A stretch of DNA of 64,000 bases. It comes from Candidatus Bathyarchaeota archaeon. GTDB taxonomy: Archaea; Thermoproteota; Bathyarchaeia; Bathyarchaeales; Bathycorpusculaceae. Below the pieces are notes generated by a model that worked only from the letters and a program-made list of their open reading frames with translations, was not told the DNA's origin and did no database searches. Where the stretch lies: assembly GCA_026014745.1 (NCBI GenBank), contig JAOZHS010000001.1, positions 558,001 through 622,000 on the forward strand, read 5' to 3'. Positions 34,684 to 61,697 of this stretch are shown in pieces. The first letter of the stretch is position 1. Every line of letters begins with the position of its first letter. Both the position numbers and the translations under genes were made by a program.

Positions 34684-35088
34684 GTGGCAAGCAAAAAGTC
34701 AGAGAAAACCTTCAACGATATACTAATTGGGTCAATTGACGATGCGTTCTCGTCTTTAGGTGAGAGTGCAAAACAGGCGATATACTATCATCTGCTAACA
34801 AAATTCGAGATTCCTAAAGAGGATATCCCTGATAGAGTCAACGATTTCTCGAATGCGCTTGAACAAATTTTTGGTGCTGGCGCTCGGCAACTGGAAATTC
34901 TGATAATGAAACGTTTGCACGAAAAAATCGATTGCTCCTATAAATGGGAAGGTCCAAAATGGTTAGTTCCTGATTTAACTTTTACCAAATATGTAAAGTT
35001 AGTTAAACTGTGCCTTGAAGACAACCACAAAATAGGTGAGGTTGAGATCATTCTTGATGCTGAAGAACACCGCGTCCGACAAATGTAA
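34684..35088 (+). CDS. Small helical protein before the histidine kinase, NitrOD5-like
   Basis: 134 residues from a GTG at 34684, chosen because GGAGG lies at 34672-34676, seven bases upstream. The ORF extends further left but without such a site. The fold appears all-helical: IDDAFSSLGESAKQAIYYHLLTKFEIP, then IPDRVNDFSNALEQIFGAGARQLEILIMKRLHEKI (in pieces). This resembles a domain (NitrOD5-type) seen at the ends of archaeal sensor kinases and phosphatases, a tentative assignment. The next gene begins inside its last codons, so it is probably a partner or output protein of the kinase. Confidence 0.55.
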   Translation: MASKKSEKTFNDILIGSIDDAFSSLGESAKQAIYYHLLTKFEIPKEDIPDRVNDFSNALEQIFGAGARQLEILIMKRLHEKIDCSYKWEGPKWLVPDLTFTKYVKLVKLCLEDNHKIGEVEIILDAEEHRVRQM

Positions 35089-37774
35089 CGATTCTTTGCC
35101 TGTGCTTATTGACCTTGTTCCAGATCCCATAGCACTACTGGATAGCAAAGGAAAAATTGCTTACGTTAACAAACAACTCGAAAGTTTATGGGGTGTTTGT
35201 AAAGAGCAAATAGTTGGCAAAAACGTTACTGAGTTGCCCTTCCTGAGTGGCTCATGTCAACAGTTGCTTTTGTCGAACGCCAAAAAACGGTTTGCTGGAG
35301 CAAGCATCCCTCCTTACGAAATAAAAACAACTGCCTCTAACGGTGAACAGCACTGTTTAGACGTCAAAGGCACGATCATAAAAAACGAGGGCGAAGTGTT
35401 CATTTTAGGCCTTTTCCGTGATGTTACCGAAAGGGCAAAAACCCAAAAAGAGCTACAGACTGAGCTGTCCCTTAGTGAAGAAAAACTGCAATGCCTCTGT
35501 AACTCGCTAAGAGACGCCATTGTTTTTGTTGACGAAAAAACCCGAGTCACATACTGGAATACAGCAGCCGAAAAAACCTTCGGTTTCACCCGAGAAGAAG
35601 TGCTGGGCAAAAACGTGCATGACCTAGTGGTGCCTGCCTCTATGTGTAAAGAAGCCCGCGCCAACATCGGGACATGTGTAGAGATTTTTTCACAAACCGG
35701 CATGGGTTACTTCACAGTGGGAAACGTTGAATTGATTGGTCGACACAAAGATGGCAGCGAATTCCCAGTTGAATTATCGCTTTCCTCGATAAATCTGAAT
35801 GGCGTATGGCATGCAGCAGGCATCATAAAAGACATAACTAGCAGAAAACGCGGGGAACAAAAACTAAAGGACGCAGAGCAACGATATCACGCCTTGTTTA
35901 ATCAAGCACCCTTAGGTGTTATGGTTATTGACCCCCAAACTGGCGCATTTTTGGATTTTAACGATATAGCTCACCTCCAATTGGGGTACTCGCGGGAAGA
36001 ATTCGAAAAACTAACTCTCTCTGACATTGAAACCGAAAAAACAAAGCAAGAACTTCAAGCATTGATCATGGATCTGGTTCGGGACGGAAGCGGGCAATTT
36101 GAAACAAAACATCGCACAAAAACAGACGATGTCCGAAACGTCTTGATTACTATCCGCGCTTTTCGTTCTTCAGGTAGACCTTACCTCAACTGCATATGTC
36201 ACGATATTACTGAAACCAAAAAAGCCCAACTTGCTATGATTAAAAGTGAAGCTCGACTACGCGAAAGTGAGGAATTATTCCGTGCAATCAGCACATTCTC
36301 CACTGACGCTATCATTCTCAGTGACCAAAACGATAAAGTCATCTATTGGAATCCCGCAGCCGAACAAACCTTCAGTTACCCAGAAAATGAAGCTATAGGC
36401 AAAAGCCTCACTGAATTGGTAATGCCTTCTTCTGAGCATGAAGCTCATAAAGAAATGCTCAAAGAAATATTGGCTAAGCCTCTATCAAAGAAGCATCGCC
36501 AACTTAACGCAAAACGTAAAGATGGCTCCACTTTTCCAATGGACATCTCCATTGTGTCCGTAACATTAGATGGTAAACAGTGTCTACTCTCAACCATCCG
36601 CGACGTGACAGAATGGAAAAATATGGAGGAAGCGCTCCGACAGGAACGCGACATGCTTGAAAATGTAGCGGCCAACGTGAACGCGGGTTTAGCCATTATT
36701 AATCGTGAATACAAAATCGTATGGGCTAATCAGTTGCTCAAGCAGCTTTCTAAAAAAAGCCAGGTGGAAAACGAGTACTGCTATAAGGTATTTCCAAAAG
36801 ACAGCGACGGTATTTGCATCGATTGTGGCGTTCAAAAAATCTTTGAAGAGGGCGCAGCAATTGATCGGCACGATTACCACTTTGAAAATCCTAATTCAGG
36901 CTGGGTCGAATTAATTGTAACCCCCATCAAGGACAAGGAAGGCAACGTTGTCGCAGCCTTAGAATTGGTAGTGGACATAACCGAACGCAAACAGCAACAG
37001 GCGCAAGGCGTTGAGTACTCACAGAAGCTTGAAGGACTTGTGCAGAAAAGAACTGACCAGTTGAAGAGAACTCAAGCGGAGTTGGTGAAGTCGGAACGTT
37101 TAGCGGCTATCGGCGAATTAGCTAGCATGGTGGGACATGACCTACGTAATCCCTTGACAGGCATCAAAAATTCTGCTTACTTCATGAAAAAGAAAGGTAG
37201 CCAAATCCCGCCCGACCAATACCGTGAGATGCTTGAAACAATTGACAAATGCGTAGACTACTCTAACAAAATCGTAAGCGACCTGTTGGATTACTCTAGA
37301 GAAATTCGACTAAATCTGCAGGATTATTCTCCCAAAAAATTGCTTGACGAATCGTTAAGCATCCTGGGGAAACCTGCTAACGTTAAAATCGAAAACAACC
37401 TCCCATATGAATTCACTGTAAAGCTGGATGCTGACAAAATAAAAAGGGTTTTCGTGAACCTTCTAAAAAACGCCATAGACGCCATGCCTAACGGAGGAAA
37501 GGTGACGGTGAGCAGCAAAACGGTTCCGGGCGCCTTAGCGATTTTAGTTACTGATACGGGTGTAGGGATTAGCGAAGATGTGCTGTCTAACCTCTTTGTG
37601 CCCCTGTTCACTACTAAGGCGCAGGGCATGGGTTTTGGCTTAGCCATCTGCAAGCGTATGGTGGAGGCCCATGGGGGAACGATAACCTGTACAACTGTCA
37701 AAGGGCGAGGAACAACCTTCACGCTAACCTTACCGATACAACAACATGAATTGGAGGTGAATGTATTTGGTTAA
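35057..37774 (+). CDS. Multi-PAS sensor histidine kinase
   Basis: About 905 residues. Five PAS domains in a row, recognisable by motifs like VPDPIALLDSKGKIAYVN, DAIVFVDEKTRVTYWN, GVMVIDPQTGAFLDFND, DAIILSDQNDKVIYWN and AGLAIINREYKIVWAN. The fifth PAS carries a cysteine group, CYKVF...CIDCG, near residues 575-590. Then come a HisKA phosphoacceptor (MVGHDLRNPLTG, His near residue 693) and an HATPase domain (VFVNLLKNAIDAM, DTGVGIS, GMGFGLAI). No membrane segments, so it is a cytoplasmic sensor. The start is uncertain between ATG 35057 and GTG 35036, both inside the end of the previous gene. Confidence 0.9.
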   Translation: MLKNTASDKCNDSLPVLIDLVPDPIALLDSKGKIAYVNKQLESLWGVCKEQIVGKNVTELPFLSGSCQQLLLSNAKKRFAGASIPPYEIKTTASNGEQHCLDVKGTIIKNEGEVFILGLFRDVTERAKTQKELQTELSLSEEKLQCLCNSLRDAIVFVDEKTRVTYWNTAAEKTFGFTREEVLGKNVHDLVVPASMCKEARANIGTCVEIFSQTGMGYFTVGNVELIGRHKDGSEFPVELSLSSINLNGVWHAAGIIKDITSRKRGEQKLKDAEQRYHALFNQAPLGVMVIDPQTGAFLDFNDIAHLQLGYSREEFEKLTLSDIETEKTKQELQALIMDLVRDGSGQFETKHRTKTDDVRNVLITIRAFRSSGRPYLNCICHDITETKKAQLAMIKSEARLRESEELFRAISTFSTDAIILSDQNDKVIYWNPAAEQTFSYPENEAIGKSLTELVMPSSEHEAHKEMLKEILAKPLSKKHRQLNAKRKDGSTFPMDISIVSVTLDGKQCLLSTIRDVTEWKNMEEALRQERDMLENVAANVNAGLAIINREYKIVWANQLLKQLSKKSQVENEYCYKVFPKDSDGICIDCGVQKIFEEGAAIDRHDYHFENPNSGWVELIVTPIKDKEGNVVAALELVVDITERKQQQAQGVEYSQKLEGLVQKRTDQLKRTQAELVKSERLAAIGELASMVGHDLRNPLTGIKNSAYFMKKKGSQIPPDQYREMLETIDKCVDYSNKIVSDLLDYSREIRLNLQDYSPKKLLDESLSILGKPANVKIENNLPYEFTVKLDADKIKRVFVNLLKNAIDAMPNGGKVTVSSKTVPGALAILVTDTGVGISEDVLSNLFVPLFTTKAQGMGFGLAICKRMVEAHGGTITCTTVKGRGTTFTLTLPIQQHELEVNVFG

Positions 37775-38804: not shown

Positions 38805-40331
38805 GTGGCTCAAGCAACCTTTGAAGAAATATCTGCATCGGACTTTTTCTACCGAAACCGAGACATCGCAGGCTTAACCAACCCCTCACGCAGCATATTT
38901 GTTGCCATCCGCGAAGTTGTCGAAAACAGCCTTGACGCTGCAGAGAGCCAAAAAATCCCTCCCGATATCTATGTGCGCTTAAGTTTTGAAGCTGAAGCCA
39001 CCAAAGATACTCAAATCTACAAACTTCACGTAGAAGACAACGGCAGCGGGATTCCTCCACGTTTCATACCCTCCGCGTTTGGTCAAGTCCTCTACGGCAG
39101 CAAATACAAACTCAAACAAGCCCGAGGCACCTTCGGTTTAGGCGGCAAAATGGCGGTCCTCTACGGGCAAATTACAACGCATCAACCCGTCTTTGTAACT
39201 TCAAGCACGGGGCAGGAAAAAATTTACAGTTTCAAATTGATGATAGACATCCAACGCAATAAACCCATTATATTGGACCGAAAAGTCATCATCAACAAAG
39301 ACCAATGGCGTGGCACTATTATCGAGTTTACTCTTGAAGGTGACTACCTTCGTGCAATGCCCAAAATTATTGAGTACTTCAAACAAACCGCTATGGTGAA
39401 TCCCTATGCTAACCTAACTTTTGTTGACCCCAAAGGTAGGCTCTACAAGTTTACAAGGGCAACCACCACGATGCCGGAGCCCCCTAAAGAAACCATGCCG
39501 CATCCATACGGTGTAGACGTCGAGTTGTTGCAGCGGCTTATCCAAGTTACCGAATTCACCAACATGTCTACTTTTCTGCGTGGACATTTCCATCGCGTAG
39601 GTGAGATTACTGCACAGAAATTTCTCGAGTTTGCTGGGTTACCCGCAAATAAGAATCCCAAGAAACTCACCCATGAGGAAATCGTGAGGTTAATGCAGAA
39701 CCTCAAAAAATACAAAGACTTTCTCCCCCCTGACGCCAGTTGTCTCTCACCATTAGGCGAAGAACTGCTCAAGACAGGTGTCATGAAGGAGCTTAACCCT
39801 GAGTACCTTGTGGTGCATCAACGCAAGCCCTCCACGTATGCGGGGCACCCATTTATTGTGGAGATGGCTATGGCATATGGCGGCAATGTACCCAAACGAG
39901 GTAACTTTGTTATCTATCGTTTCGCAAACAAAATCCCTCTCTTATACGACGAAGCCAGCGATGTATCCTATCGTGCAATCTCAAGCATGAATTGGAAACG
40001 CTACAAAGTCTCGCCTGACATGCCCATTGCAATCGTCGTGCATATTTGTAGCACTAAAGTGCCTTACAAGACGGTTGGTAAAGAATTCATCAGCGACCGT
40101 CCCGAAGTACGACGCGAAGAAGCAAACGCGTTACGTGAAGTAGCTCGTCAAATCCAGCATTTCCTTGCCCGACAAGAGCATGTGCATAATGAAAAGAAGC
40201 GTCTGAGCATTTTTGGCAAGTATTTGCCTAAAATTGCCGAGTTCTCGACTATGTTAGCTGGGGAAACCGAGAAGCCTGACGTAGAAAAATTACTAAAGAG
40301 TGTACAGAAGTATGGCGCAGAAGAAAGTTAA
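38805..40331 (+). CDS. top6B: DNA topoisomerase VI subunit B
   Basis: 508 residues with a GTG start. ATP-binding GHKL subunit of the archaeal type IIB topoisomerase. The Bergerat motifs are intact: REVVENSLDAAE, VEDNGSGIPP and GTFGLGGKMAVLYGQ. A H2TH-like middle region and a transducer domain with the catalytic lysine region follow. The last bases overlap the start of top6A, so the two subunits are coupled. Together they relax supercoils and decatenate DNA. Confidence 0.95.
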   Translation: MAQATFEEISASDFFYRNRDIAGLTNPSRSIFVAIREVVENSLDAAESQKIPPDIYVRLSFEAEATKDTQIYKLHVEDNGSGIPPRFIPSAFGQVLYGSKYKLKQARGTFGLGGKMAVLYGQITTHQPVFVTSSTGQEKIYSFKLMIDIQRNKPIILDRKVIINKDQWRGTIIEFTLEGDYLRAMPKIIEYFKQTAMVNPYANLTFVDPKGRLYKFTRATTTMPEPPKETMPHPYGVDVELLQRLIQVTEFTNMSTFLRGHFHRVGEITAQKFLEFAGLPANKNPKKLTHEEIVRLMQNLKKYKDFLPPDASCLSPLGEELLKTGVMKELNPEYLVVHQRKPSTYAGHPFIVEMAMAYGGNVPKRGNFVIYRFANKIPLLYDEASDVSYRAISSMNWKRYKVSPDMPIAIVVHICSTKVPYKTVGKEFISDRPEVRREEANALREVARQIQHFLARQEHVHNEKKRLSIFGKYLPKIAEFSTMLAGETEKPDVEKLLKSVQKYGAEES

Positions 40332-41439
40332 AGTAGCTGAAAAAAAGCAGGAAGTCCTCAAAGGACTCAAGAACTTCGGTGTCTCCGTATACAATCAGCT
40401 TGAGCAAGGTGTCTTCCCAACCGTTAACATGCCCAGCCGCTCAACCGAAAACATCACCTATGACCCAACCCTGCGCCAGTATATTTTAGGTGAAAAAAGC
40501 GTAGGTCGAAGCACCCGAAACATTCGGCATATAAAACCCTTCACGCAGCTTTCTTGGGTGGCAATGTTTAGCAATGAACTTACCAGTCAACGCAAAACTT
40601 CCACGTTAAGAGACGTCTACTACTCTGCGCAAGCTTACGAAATGACTTTTCAGGACCAGCAGGAATCAAACAACATCATCACTGATCTTGAAACCCTCAC
40701 AGGTTTTGCAAGAGAAGACTTCAACATTTTCCCCGAAGAACGCAGCGCAATCTTTGGCGACCTCGAAATCGGCTACACCGTTCCAGGCTACGAAGGAAAA
40801 ACAGTAAACCTGACCAGTCACCCCGACGGCGTGCTCATCGGGCCCGCAGTAACCTCCTCGGATTTCATTAAAACCACAGCGGACAAAGTTATAGCCATCG
40901 AGAAAGGCGCACTCTTCACCAGATTTATCGAAGAAAACGTCCACAACAAACACAAATCTCTCCTCATCGCCTGCGGTGGACAAGCACCCCGCCAAACCCG
41001 CAGCTTCATACGCCGCCTCCACGACGAACTCAACCTCCCCGTCTACATATTAACTGACGGCGACCCATGGGGAATGCACATTGCCCAAGTCATCATCTCA
41101 GGTTCCGCAAACGCCGCCCACTTGCGAGACTTAAACACACCCGATGCCATTTGGAGCGGAGTTTGGGCAAGCGACATCATCGAATACAAACTACCCACTG
41201 ACCCACTCGATGAAGTAGACATTAAGCGTCTTTATGAGTTGCAAAAAGACCCCCGATACCAAAATGACCCCGTTTGGCAACGTGAAATCAAAACTTTCCT
41301 CAAACTAAGGCGAAAGACGGAACTTGAAGCTTTCGCGCGGTACGGTTTAACCTACATTGTGGATGAGTATTTGCCGACAAAGTTGGAGCAGCAACCTAAA
41401 GAGGACAAATCCAAAAAGACAGGCAAGAAAAAAGAATAA
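40312..41439 (+). CDS. top6A: DNA topoisomerase VI subunit A
   Basis: 375 residues from the ATG at 40312, 20 bases inside the end of top6B. An in-frame start at 40300 would add four residues. The catalytic Tyr lies in RDVYYSAQ, followed by the Toprim domain with the acidic Glu/Asp pair in YILTDGDPWGMHIAQVI. A lysine-rich C terminus ends the protein (KEDKSKKTGKKKE). It is Spo11-like, forming the DNA break by phosphotyrosine linkage. Confidence 0.95.
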   Translation: MAQKKVKVAEKKQEVLKGLKNFGVSVYNQLEQGVFPTVNMPSRSTENITYDPTLRQYILGEKSVGRSTRNIRHIKPFTQLSWVAMFSNELTSQRKTSTLRDVYYSAQAYEMTFQDQQESNNIITDLETLTGFAREDFNIFPEERSAIFGDLEIGYTVPGYEGKTVNLTSHPDGVLIGPAVTSSDFIKTTADKVIAIEKGALFTRFIEENVHNKHKSLLIACGGQAPRQTRSFIRRLHDELNLPVYILTDGDPWGMHIAQVIISGSANAAHLRDLNTPDAIWSGVWASDIIEYKLPTDPLDEVDIKRLYELQKDPRYQNDPVWQREIKTFLKLRRKTELEAFARYGLTYIVDEYLPTKLEQQPKEDKSKKTGKKKE

Positions 41440-41558: not shown

Positions 41559-43046
41559 ATGCCCCTGCATTCCTCAGACACTGAACACAGCAAGGACTCT
41601 AGTCTACCCCGTTCCCTATACGTCCCTGAGAAGGACCCGCGGGCGAATCTCCGAGAAATCGTTGACTCCATATTCTCAGACAAATTCATGATGGCGCTTT
41701 CCCTCATATTAGTGCCCATGATCGTGGTGCCCCTTTTTGTAGAACTAAACACTTCCGTGCTGGATTTTCTTGAAATTTGTGACTGGATTATTGTTTTGAT
41801 CTTCGTTGTTGAATACGTATTAAAACTGTTTCTTGCTGCAGATCGCTGGAGGCACTTCAAATCTCCTTGGCATCTGGTAGATTTGTTGATTGTAGTTTTG
41901 CCCTTTGCCCAGTATATGCCAATGGTAAGCTTAAGCATAACAGGTTCTCCGTCGCTTCTGCTGCGGCTGTTACGGTTGCCTAGGGCAGTGGCTGTTGGCG
42001 GCAGAGCGGTTGCAGGTAGACGTCAAGGCAATAGCATAGCCTCAGAGAATCCTGTCAAAGGCCCTGAAACTGTGATTCATCAGGTTGACTCTGAGTTATC
42101 CGTAACGACCTTGACGTGGGAGGAATTAAAAACCCACATAACCGACGCGCATCATGAGGAATGGTTGGACATCCACTATATTTCCGATGAGGGCTTTGAG
42201 CGGTTAAGTAAGATTTTAGGTATAGCCGAACCTCACTTCAAAAGCGCTTTAGTCGACGAAATCTATCCTCACATTGACTATGTTCAGAAATCCTCTTTTA
42301 TTTTCCTGCAATCAGGCCAAATTCAGTACCCCGAAAGCGCAGGTAGCTACCTGACGATTTCTCGCTCTGGCATCATCGTCGTATGCAACGGCACAAAAAT
42401 AATCACAGTTTCCCGTCACAGCGTAGATTTGCTTGACCAAGTTATCTGTGCAGTGCAGCAATCTCAGCCAAAAGATGCCTTTGTGGTGCCTGTTCTCTAC
42501 AAGATCCTAGAACATCGCCTTGACGATTACAAGTCTATTTTGGGTGAAATCGAACTGGAAGTATTAAAAATCGGTAACACACCACGCTCCAAATTGCCTA
42601 AAGATTTCTTGGAACGCATCTACCAATTGGATAAGGAGGTTTCTCGGTTAGTGTCTAATTTGGTCCATTTCAAAGACATGCTTAGCGTCATAACATCCAA
42701 GAAGGTACCGCTGGAAGGGTTTGACAGCGGCTCTGAAGAAGCGTTTCAGGTACTTCAGGAAGGTGCATCCTACCTTAACGAACTCTCCCACGATATGATC
42801 GATAACCTTCGCTCCATCATTGACCTCTACATAAATGAAACCTCATTTGAAACTAATCGAATACTCAAAATTCTCGCCGTCATCACAAGTATCTCGGTGA
42901 TTCCCTCTGCTATCAGCGGCGTCATCGGCACTAACCTTTTGGATGTACCTTATGGTGCATATTTGTGGCAAGTTAGCTTCTTAATCGGTGTAGCTATGGT
43001 GTTTGTGGTCTATACTTTCTACAAGTTGGGTTGGCTCAAAACATAG
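41559..43046 (+). CDS. Voltage-sensor-like domain fused to CorA-type transporter
   Basis: 495 residues with an unusual two-part build. Residues ~40-150 look like an S1-S4 voltage sensor: S1 (LSLILVPMIVVPLF), S2 ending VVEYVLKLFLA, a W-H-L-V-D segment of S3, and an S4-like LLLRLLRLPRAVAVGGRAVAGRR (in pieces) with arginines about every third or fourth residue. Residues ~175-425 form a CorA soluble domain, followed by two C-terminal helices. The motif between them is GVIGTNLL, where CorA has GMN. The gene starts 119 bases after top6A. The ion is unknown. I have not seen this fusion named. Confidence 0.75.
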   Translation: MPLHSSDTEHSKDSSLPRSLYVPEKDPRANLREIVDSIFSDKFMMALSLILVPMIVVPLFVELNTSVLDFLEICDWIIVLIFVVEYVLKLFLAADRWRHFKSPWHLVDLLIVVLPFAQYMPMVSLSITGSPSLLLRLLRLPRAVAVGGRAVAGRRQGNSIASENPVKGPETVIHQVDSELSVTTLTWEELKTHITDAHHEEWLDIHYISDEGFERLSKILGIAEPHFKSALVDEIYPHIDYVQKSSFIFLQSGQIQYPESAGSYLTISRSGIIVVCNGTKIITVSRHSVDLLDQVICAVQQSQPKDAFVVPVLYKILEHRLDDYKSILGEIELEVLKIGNTPRSKLPKDFLERIYQLDKEVSRLVSNLVHFKDMLSVITSKKVPLEGFDSGSEEAFQVLQEGASYLNELSHDMIDNLRSIIDLYINETSFETNRILKILAVITSISVIPSAISGVIGTNLLDVPYGAYLWQVSFLIGVAMVFVVYTFYKLGWLKT

Positions 43047-43056
43047 ATGCATCCAA

Positions 43057-43509
43057 TTACATAGCGGGCGCTGTCATTGGTGCGGCTTTTTCTAGTGCCG
43101 GGTAAACCTTAAGGTGTGTCTCCCCGTTTTTGAAGTCAATCATCCCGTTCAAATCGGCTTTTGCTCCGTTGAGCCAGTTAAGCCTTGGCGAGTTTGTCAT
43201 GCAGGTTACTTCGCCTATGATTGTGGCTTCCATTGGCCTCACCATTTGGCTTGTCCCTGCGCCCATCATCATTATGGTATCGCCTTCTTTTGTGTACTCC
43301 ATTGCTTTAACTTGCCAACTGCTACTGCCATCCACCTTAAAAGTAGAATCAACAGTTTCCATGTGGCTTCCGTGGTATCTTCCTTTCATTTCGCCTGCCG
43401 AATTGAGTTGAATCTCTGCGCCGTTCGCGTTGAAGTCTTTGATGACTACTGAGCTGATTCTTTCTTTGATTTCGACTATAGGTTCTCTTTTTTCCAAAAT
43501 TGACACCAA
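43057..43509 (-). CDS. Hypothetical protein, all-beta-looking
   Basis: 150 residues, convergent with the CorA fusion gene (10 bases between their stops). Repeated strand-like segments with Gly turns (VKAMEYTKEGDTIMMMGAGTSQMV, MIDFKNGETHLKVYPAL, in pieces) suggest a small beta-barrel or lipocalin/SRPBCC-like fold, which I cannot confirm. No signal peptide, no membrane helix. The ATG at 43509 is the only good start. Function unknown. Confidence 0.55.
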   Translation of the reverse strand: MVSILEKREPIVEIKERISSVVIKDFNANGAEIQLNSAGEMKGRYHGSHMETVDSTFKVDGSSSWQVKAMEYTKEGDTIMMMGAGTSQMVRPMEATIIGEVTCMTNSPRLNWLNGAKADLNGMIDFKNGETHLKVYPALEKAAPMTAPAM

Positions 43510-60728: not shown

Positions 60729-61697
60729 ATGTTAATTATGATTCGCGCCGTTTTTATGGGGGACAACAGTGAAAGACCTGTTACGGCAGAGGAGTTGTCC
60801 ACGTTGCCTGTATCGAACGTTTGGCTTGAAGTTGTGGACCCAACTGACGCCGAGTTAGACGCGGTTGCTGCTACAGTTCATGTGCCTGTTACTTTTTTGC
60901 GTTTGCCCAAAAACGGCGGCGTTGTGGAGTTGCGTGTAGAAGAAGGTTATGGTATCATCGATTTTTTGGTCATGGCTGATGTGGTTTCCACCAAGAAGGC
61001 TTACCCTATTGTTTTGGTGTTTTCCAAAAAATTTTTAGTAACTGTTTCAAAAAAAGAAATTCAACCAGTCATTAACCTTGCTAAGGAACGTATGAGTAAG
61101 ACCAAAAATGATCCTCCTGCTCAGGTAACCTATTTTATCATAGATGAAATCGTCGCAAACCATTATGTAGATATTGAGAAGTTGGAGACCTTAACGGCTA
61201 AAATGGAGGAGGAAGTGGTTGAGAAAGCTTCCTCAGAGACTCTAAAACGCATTTTTAAACTCAAAACCAACATGGTTCGCTTCAACAAGATTCTCTGGTA
61301 CGAACGAAGTCTCATTTTTAATCTTCGCAGATGTAGTGACGCCTGCATGGATGCTAAGTATCGTAGCCTCTTTGACATAACCCACGAGGATTTAACCCGC
61401 CAAATAGACATCGTTGAAACCTACCGCGAAATCCTCTCTGACGCCATAAACGTCTATCTCTCGTCCATCTCTAACAAAATCAACCTTTCAATTCAAGCCT
61501 TAACCGTCGTCATATTCTACTTGACGATTATCACTACCGTAACTTCCTTCCCCAATACTGTAGCCACCTTCTTTGGAATCTCCCAATTCGGAAACACCCA
61601 CTTTGGCATCGTTATAATTGCCCTGTTGCTTTCGATTGTGTTGCCGTTTGTGTGGTTATGGCGCAAGAAGTGGCTCAAACCCAAACCCGTCGGATAA
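60729..61697 (+). CDS. CorA-like magnesium/divalent cation transporter (GMN motif replaced)
   Basis: 322 residues; ATG 60738 is an alternative start. The N-terminal alpha-beta domain, long helices with IDEIVANHYVDIEKLETLTAKMEEEVVE, and two C-terminal membrane helices (ALTVVIFYLTIITTVTSFP and HFGIVIIALLLSIVLPFVWLW) are CorA-type. Between them the sequence reads NTVATFFGIS, where canonical CorA has Y/F-G-M-N, so the filter motif is altered. Gating or selectivity may differ. It is the second CorA-type gene in the window, besides 41559. Confidence 0.82.
   Translation: MLIMIRAVFMGDNSERPVTAEELSTLPVSNVWLEVVDPTDAELDAVAATVHVPVTFLRLPKNGGVVELRVEEGYGIIDFLVMADVVSTKKAYPIVLVFSKKFLVTVSKKEIQPVINLAKERMSKTKNDPPAQVTYFIIDEIVANHYVDIEKLETLTAKMEEEVVEKASSETLKRIFKLKTNMVRFNKILWYERSLIFNLRRCSDACMDAKYRSLFDITHEDLTRQIDIVETYREILSDAINVYLSSISNKINLSIQALTVVIFYLTIITTVTSFPNTVATFFGISQFGNTHFGIVIIALLLSIVLPFVWLWRKKWLKPKPVG

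Follow-up and report, generated by a model that had tools for sequence, protein, structure and literature searches.

Voltage-gated sodium, calcium, and potassium channels (Nav/Cav/Kv; Pfam family Ion_trans) combine an S1-S4 voltage-sensor domain (VSD), with its charge-transfer center and S4 arginines, with an S5-P-S6 pore. According to a 2023 review, every VSD known from prokaryotes is linked to an S5-S6 pore (PMC10377628), and recent reviews assign the origin of VSD-only proton channels to eukaryotes (PMC10377628, PMC13095418). VSDs attached to other effectors are already known in eukaryotes, where the sperm Na+/H+ exchanger SLC9C1, a voltage-gated transporter, and the voltage-sensing phosphatases (VSP) are precedents for a VSD driving something other than a Kv-type pore. 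The proton channel Hv1, a VSD that has no S5-S6 and contains three S4 arginines, is marked by an acidic selectivity residue in mid S1 and by RxWRxxR in S4. A quite different design is that of the CorA Mg2+/Co2+ channel (structures 4ev6/4cy4 from M. jannaschii and 2iub/4i0u from T. maritima), in which an alpha/beta domain is followed by a stalk, TM1, a GxN filter, and TM2.

Here, we analyzed a window of 64,000 nucleotides (the whole stretch of DNA under study) from a Candidatus Bathyarchaeota archaeon, in which one gene joins an S1-S4 domain to a CorA protein. Its reading frame is single and uninterrupted, with no internal stops, and its parts are located in the window as follows:

41559..43046, + strand: whole gene, voltage-sensor-CorA fusion, 495 aa, ATG to TAG
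41643..41672, + strand: predicted pre-S1 helix, aa 29-38, adjoining an invariant DPR motif (aa 26-28) and R32
41679..41744, + strand: S1, aa 41-62, placed by hydropathy and structure prediction
41751..41834, + strand: S2, aa 65-92, with invariant D75, F82, E85, and K89; the first three correspond to Kv1.2 E226, F233, and E236
41865..41915, + strand: S3, aa 103-119, with invariant D108, equivalent to Kv1.2 D259
41949..42017, + strand: S4, aa 131-153, R136-xx-R139-xx-R142 and then R149; the most conserved part (71% mean identity)
42018..42071, + strand: variable linker from S4 to CorA, aa 154-171, 25% mean identity; S5-P-S6 would not fit
42072..42473, + strand: CorA cytoplasmic alpha/beta domain, aa 172-305; T. 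maritima CorA (TmCorA) positions E88 and D89 are K228 and S229
42474..42863, + strand: CorA helical/stalk region, aa 306-435; TmCorA positions D253 and N288 are V398 and N433
42864..42926, + strand: CorA TM1, aa 436-456; hydrophobic gate residues L436 and L439 at TmCorA positions M291 and L294
42927..42935, + strand: GTN filter, aa 457-459, replacing GMN
42963..43028, + strand: CorA TM2, aa 469-490, placed by Pfam and hydropathy

Both parts were matched by Pfam above the curated cut-offs: Ion_trans (PF00520) at aa 46-143 (E 4.2e-11, profile positions 8-108 of 241) and CorA (PF01544) at aa 202-489 (E 5.2e-32, profile positions 6-292 of 292). The match to TIGR00383 (74 bits) is below the equivalog cut-off of 200.75. 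No S5-P-S6 follows S4; the Ion_trans match ends at profile position 108, and a linker of ~18 residues leads directly into CorA. The sequence-only reading of this DNA had described four voltage-sensor-like N-terminal helices, no pore helix pair after S4, and a CorA soluble domain with two CorA-type helices behind the sensor. Each of these elements was borne out: the Ion_trans match is confined to S1-S4, the full CorA profile is aligned behind it, and the charge-transfer residues and fold search presented below agree with a voltage sensor.

In the fusion protein, a non-Kv effector is covalently attached to a VSD, as in SLC9C1 and VSP, whereas those proteins are eukaryotic and their effectors unrelated; in addition, the VSD of SLC9C1 follows the transporter domain, while that of the fusion comes first. 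Compared with Nav/Cav/Kv channels, among which T-type CaV and Nav give the best matches, the fusion has no S5-P-S6 and instead possesses a CorA pore, presumably five-fold, and its S4 contains three arginines and an internal proline. Compared with CorA, its C-terminal 320 residues display the same series of elements, and S1-S4 is added in front.

The same domain order was observed in nine further intact homologues, giving ten distinct proteins that share order and boundary, and both Pfam families were matched in all eight family members scanned. The host genome (2.7 Mb, 3 contigs, 97.5% complete) carries a second fusion copy, a 51% identical paralogue (L002:1480-2949, contig 2) with a GMN filter, whose second S4 arginine is replaced by T; apart from these two fusions, nothing in the genome matches Ion_trans. 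Two same-genus orthologues, 69% identical, are found downstream of topoisomerase VI subunit A, like the query gene. The other homologues (50-57% identical where measured) belong to Nitrososphaerales MAGs, genomes of the same order, and one Methanomethylicia MAG, in which the gene sits on a 4.7-kb contig so short that its assignment may be a binning error. The sequence-only reading had proposed looking for this architecture in other archaea and had pointed to a frameshift joining two genes as one finding that would overturn it. A frameshift or chimeric assembly was rejected, because the same boundary recurs in ten intact copies that come from different genomes and different assemblies, and the 50-69% identical homologues are uninterrupted; nothing was found in its favor beyond the fact that the two parts come from different superfamilies, and its probability is negligible.

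In the window, the topoisomerase VI B and A genes (38805-41439, + strand, overlapping as called) are directly upstream of the fusion, and the A gene is also upstream in two relatives. A sensor histidine kinase containing multiple PAS domains (35036-37774, + strand) is followed by a response-regulator-like ORF, and a short ORF with no Pfam match (43057-43509, - strand) converges on the 3' end of the fusion.

The helices S1-S4 were given by hydropathy and structure prediction. D75, F82, E85, and K89 of S2 and D108 of S3 are invariant in the ten proteins, as are R136, R142, and R149 of S4, while R139 is present in nine and replaced by T in the paralogue only. S4 contains the sequence LLLRLLRLPR, with an invariant proline between two arginines. 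D75, F82, E85, and D108 are spaced 0/7/10/33, and the spacing of positions 75, 82, and 108 matches that of the Kv1.2 charge-transfer residues E226, F233, and D259 (PMC13095418). Mean pairwise identity is highest in S4 (0.71) and lowest in the linker (0.25), with values of 0.57 for the VSD and 0.54 for the CorA part. Selection is reported as pN/pS only, because most pairs are at or close to saturation in dS; the ratio is about 0.10-0.26 in the VSD, 0.03-0.20 in S4, and 0.47-0.64 in the linker. Both domains are thus under purifying selection, with the linker changing more freely.

Searches of the N-terminal part against PDB sequences returned T-type calcium and sodium channels (best E 5e-14). 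All matches are voltage-gated Ca/Na/K channels except two weak ones to a cystine/glutamate transporter at 1e-4, a sign that some background is to be expected from membrane segments. A profile built from eight homologues matched a T-type calcium channel (E 8e-19) and also the Hv1 chimera 3wkv (E 1.3e-6). Confidence in the VSD-only model is modest (mean pLDDT 57.8), and all 50 of the Foldseek matches listed for it are Nav/Cav/Kv channels, most with probability 0.94-1.00; their E-values are weak (0.04 and above), so that the fold search backs a VSD fold without proving it. The full-length AlphaFold model, built from 4 sequences (pLDDT 39, pTM 0.25), was drawn on for secondary structure only. Taken together, these comparisons support the N-terminal region as a bona fide S1-S4 voltage-sensor domain. 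The other refutation named beforehand, that the helices do not form a VSD bundle, does not hold, as the modest-confidence model matches voltage-sensor bundles.

Having a VSD without S5-S6, three S4 arginines, and a family profile that matches 3wkv, the fusion resembles Hv1, and its S1-S4 domain might conduct protons while being coupled or tethered to the divalent transporter, for example as in a proton-coupled ZntB-like system, ZntB being proton-stimulated (PMC6972854). However, the mid-S1 acidic residue is absent, the only candidate being the non-conserved position 62 at the end of S1, and S4 has RLLR where the tryptophan-containing Hv1 signature would be. The fusion also differs from Hv1 in carrying a second pore, and its CorA part resembles M. 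jannaschii CorA (MjCorA) and TmCorA, which do not move protons. The missing signature residues make proton conduction less likely, and we consider such a system very improbable. The reading that the protein functions mainly as an Hv1-like proton channel was rejected because these residues are missing.

The CorA part matches M. jannaschii and T. maritima CorA in PDB and aligns without gaps to both from N288 through GMN. Several features of the CorA pore are kept: the pore-mouth Asn (TmCorA N288, here N433) is invariant, both hydrophobic gate positions (M291 and L294) are occupied by Leu throughout, and the filter has its G and its N in every one of the ten proteins. At T295, all 8 aligned proteins have Ala. 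Between G and N, the ten filters have T, M, A, A, Q, M, M, M, T, T. Thus, the replacement of GMN, typical of Mg2+-transporting CorA, by GTN after TM1, which had been proposed from the sequence, is true of the query but not of the family, since GMN occurs in the paralogue and three others and GAN and GQN are also found. CorA and ZntB proteins that differ in their GxN motif are broadly selective for divalent cations (PMC6972854), and GTN therefore does not name the transported ion.

The M1 and M2 Mg2+ ligands of TmCorA are lost in the fusion family. D89 and D253, which form the regulatory M1 Mg2+ site of TmCorA (PMC3629940), are replaced in all ten proteins (D89 by S/G/A/T/I; D253 by V/I/L/R), and E88 and D175 are likewise lost. 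As MjCorA also has no D89 and TmCorA M1 mutants still close (PMC8865849), this loss is no proof of changed gating; it is only suggestive of a change in gating control.

The host genome also encodes two other CorA-like proteins. An ordinary CorA-family protein in the window (60729-61697, + strand, 322 aa, E 4e-30) has FFGISQFG at the expected GxN site (GIS), and a second CorA-like protein on contig 2 (L018:1318-2517) reads MLGNSVW (GNS). As neither has GxN, the paralogous fusion is the only GMN CorA found in the genome. Contig 1 contains an MgtE/SLC41-like membrane protein (L035:213-2646) adjoining a gene that by eye resembles TrkA-C/PhoU-type regulators, and the fusions need not be the sole Mg2+ route.

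From these sequence data, we consider it moderately probable that the fusion is a pentameric CorA-type divalent-cation channel (for Mg2+ or similar) in which five voltage sensors at the periphery bias the opening of the pore; we infer both its voltage dependence and the coupling of VSD and CorA. If the CorA part pentamerizes in the usual way, five sensors would ring one pore. Both ends of S1-S4 would be cytoplasmic, which a connection to the cytoplasmic domain of CorA requires. The three S4 arginines would move past F82, E85, and D108, and this movement would pull or push the CorA alpha/beta domain via the linker of roughly 18 residues, with the displacement biasing the stalk between closed and open. 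In this way, the sensor might take over part of the control that Mg2+ exerts at the D89/D253 site in T. maritima CorA. Opening could occur on hyperpolarization or on depolarization.

Selection on S4, together with loss of the M1 Mg2+ site, makes voltage-controlled opening plausible. Several features argue against it: the three regularly spaced S4 arginines (two in the paralogue) compare with 4-6 in most voltage-gated channels, an invariant proline lies inside the arginine series, and the variable linker, which is probably flexible, argues against tight coupling of S4 to CorA. The same short charge series with its proline, the flexible linker, and the loss of R139 in the paralogue would suit the main rival, in which a voltage-sensor fold does not gate the pore and serves as a membrane anchor, a pentamer-stabilizing ring, or a lipid- or partner-binding domain, a role that S1-S4 has in some relatives that are not voltage-gated. 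But the charge-transfer residues are constant across ten sequences with identities as low as about 50%, and a scaffold would not require D75, F82, E85, and D108 along with the S4 arginines; we regard this role as rather unlikely. For the voltage-biased channel, gating must be told apart from driving force, because ordinary CorA flux already follows the membrane potential in that way (PMC6972854).

The fusion gene, carried by a small number of uncultured archaea, has a patchy distribution. Within the genus it was found in 3 of 32 genomes, within the phylum in 4 of 398, and within the Methanomethylicia class in 1 of 40, as well as in 2 of 400 genomes sampled from the class of homologue L007 and 5 of 400 sampled from its order. 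The class-wide search also returned CorA-only proteins starting at query residue 187-196, which marks the fusion boundary there, while a class search with the VSD alone matched only fusions and one decayed remnant. This N-terminal remnant, interrupted by stops (L033, about 1157-1466, - strand), occupies the corresponding site next to topoisomerase VI A in a same-genus genome, in which the fusion gene was probably present earlier and then lost. Being often absent or decayed among relatives, the gene is dispensable, a further point against the voltage-biased channel. A contig scan with a single sequence gave no loci and one with an alignment gave three; no fusion was found in the plasmids and viral contigs scanned. 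Beyond Thermoproteota, the scan used only short exact peptide patterns, by which one or more of the known divergent members would be missed. Trees built separately for the VSD and for CorA are too sparsely supported to tell one fusion event from several, and none of their supported branches conflict.

Our literature search for a voltage-sensor-CorA fusion found no description. Together with the 2023 review (PMC10377628), this is consistent with the earlier remark that no described family was known to have this domain order, and the archaeal fusion family is a counter-example to a universal S5-S6 pore on prokaryotic VSDs. What is new is CorA as an unusual VSD partner. We see about an even chance that the fusion is the first voltage-gated channel on a CorA pentamer and the first prokaryotic voltage sensor to drive anything but an S5-S6 pore, with voltage-controlled metal-ion entry having evolved in archaea independently of the Kv/Nav/Cav design. 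The fusion shows that a voltage sensor can recombine with a pore that is unrelated to its usual one and presumably five-fold. Should the sensor work, the fusion would test what a VSD requires to gate a pore with nothing in common with S5-S6, and it would represent a new form of control over Mg2+ or metal uptake in archaea.
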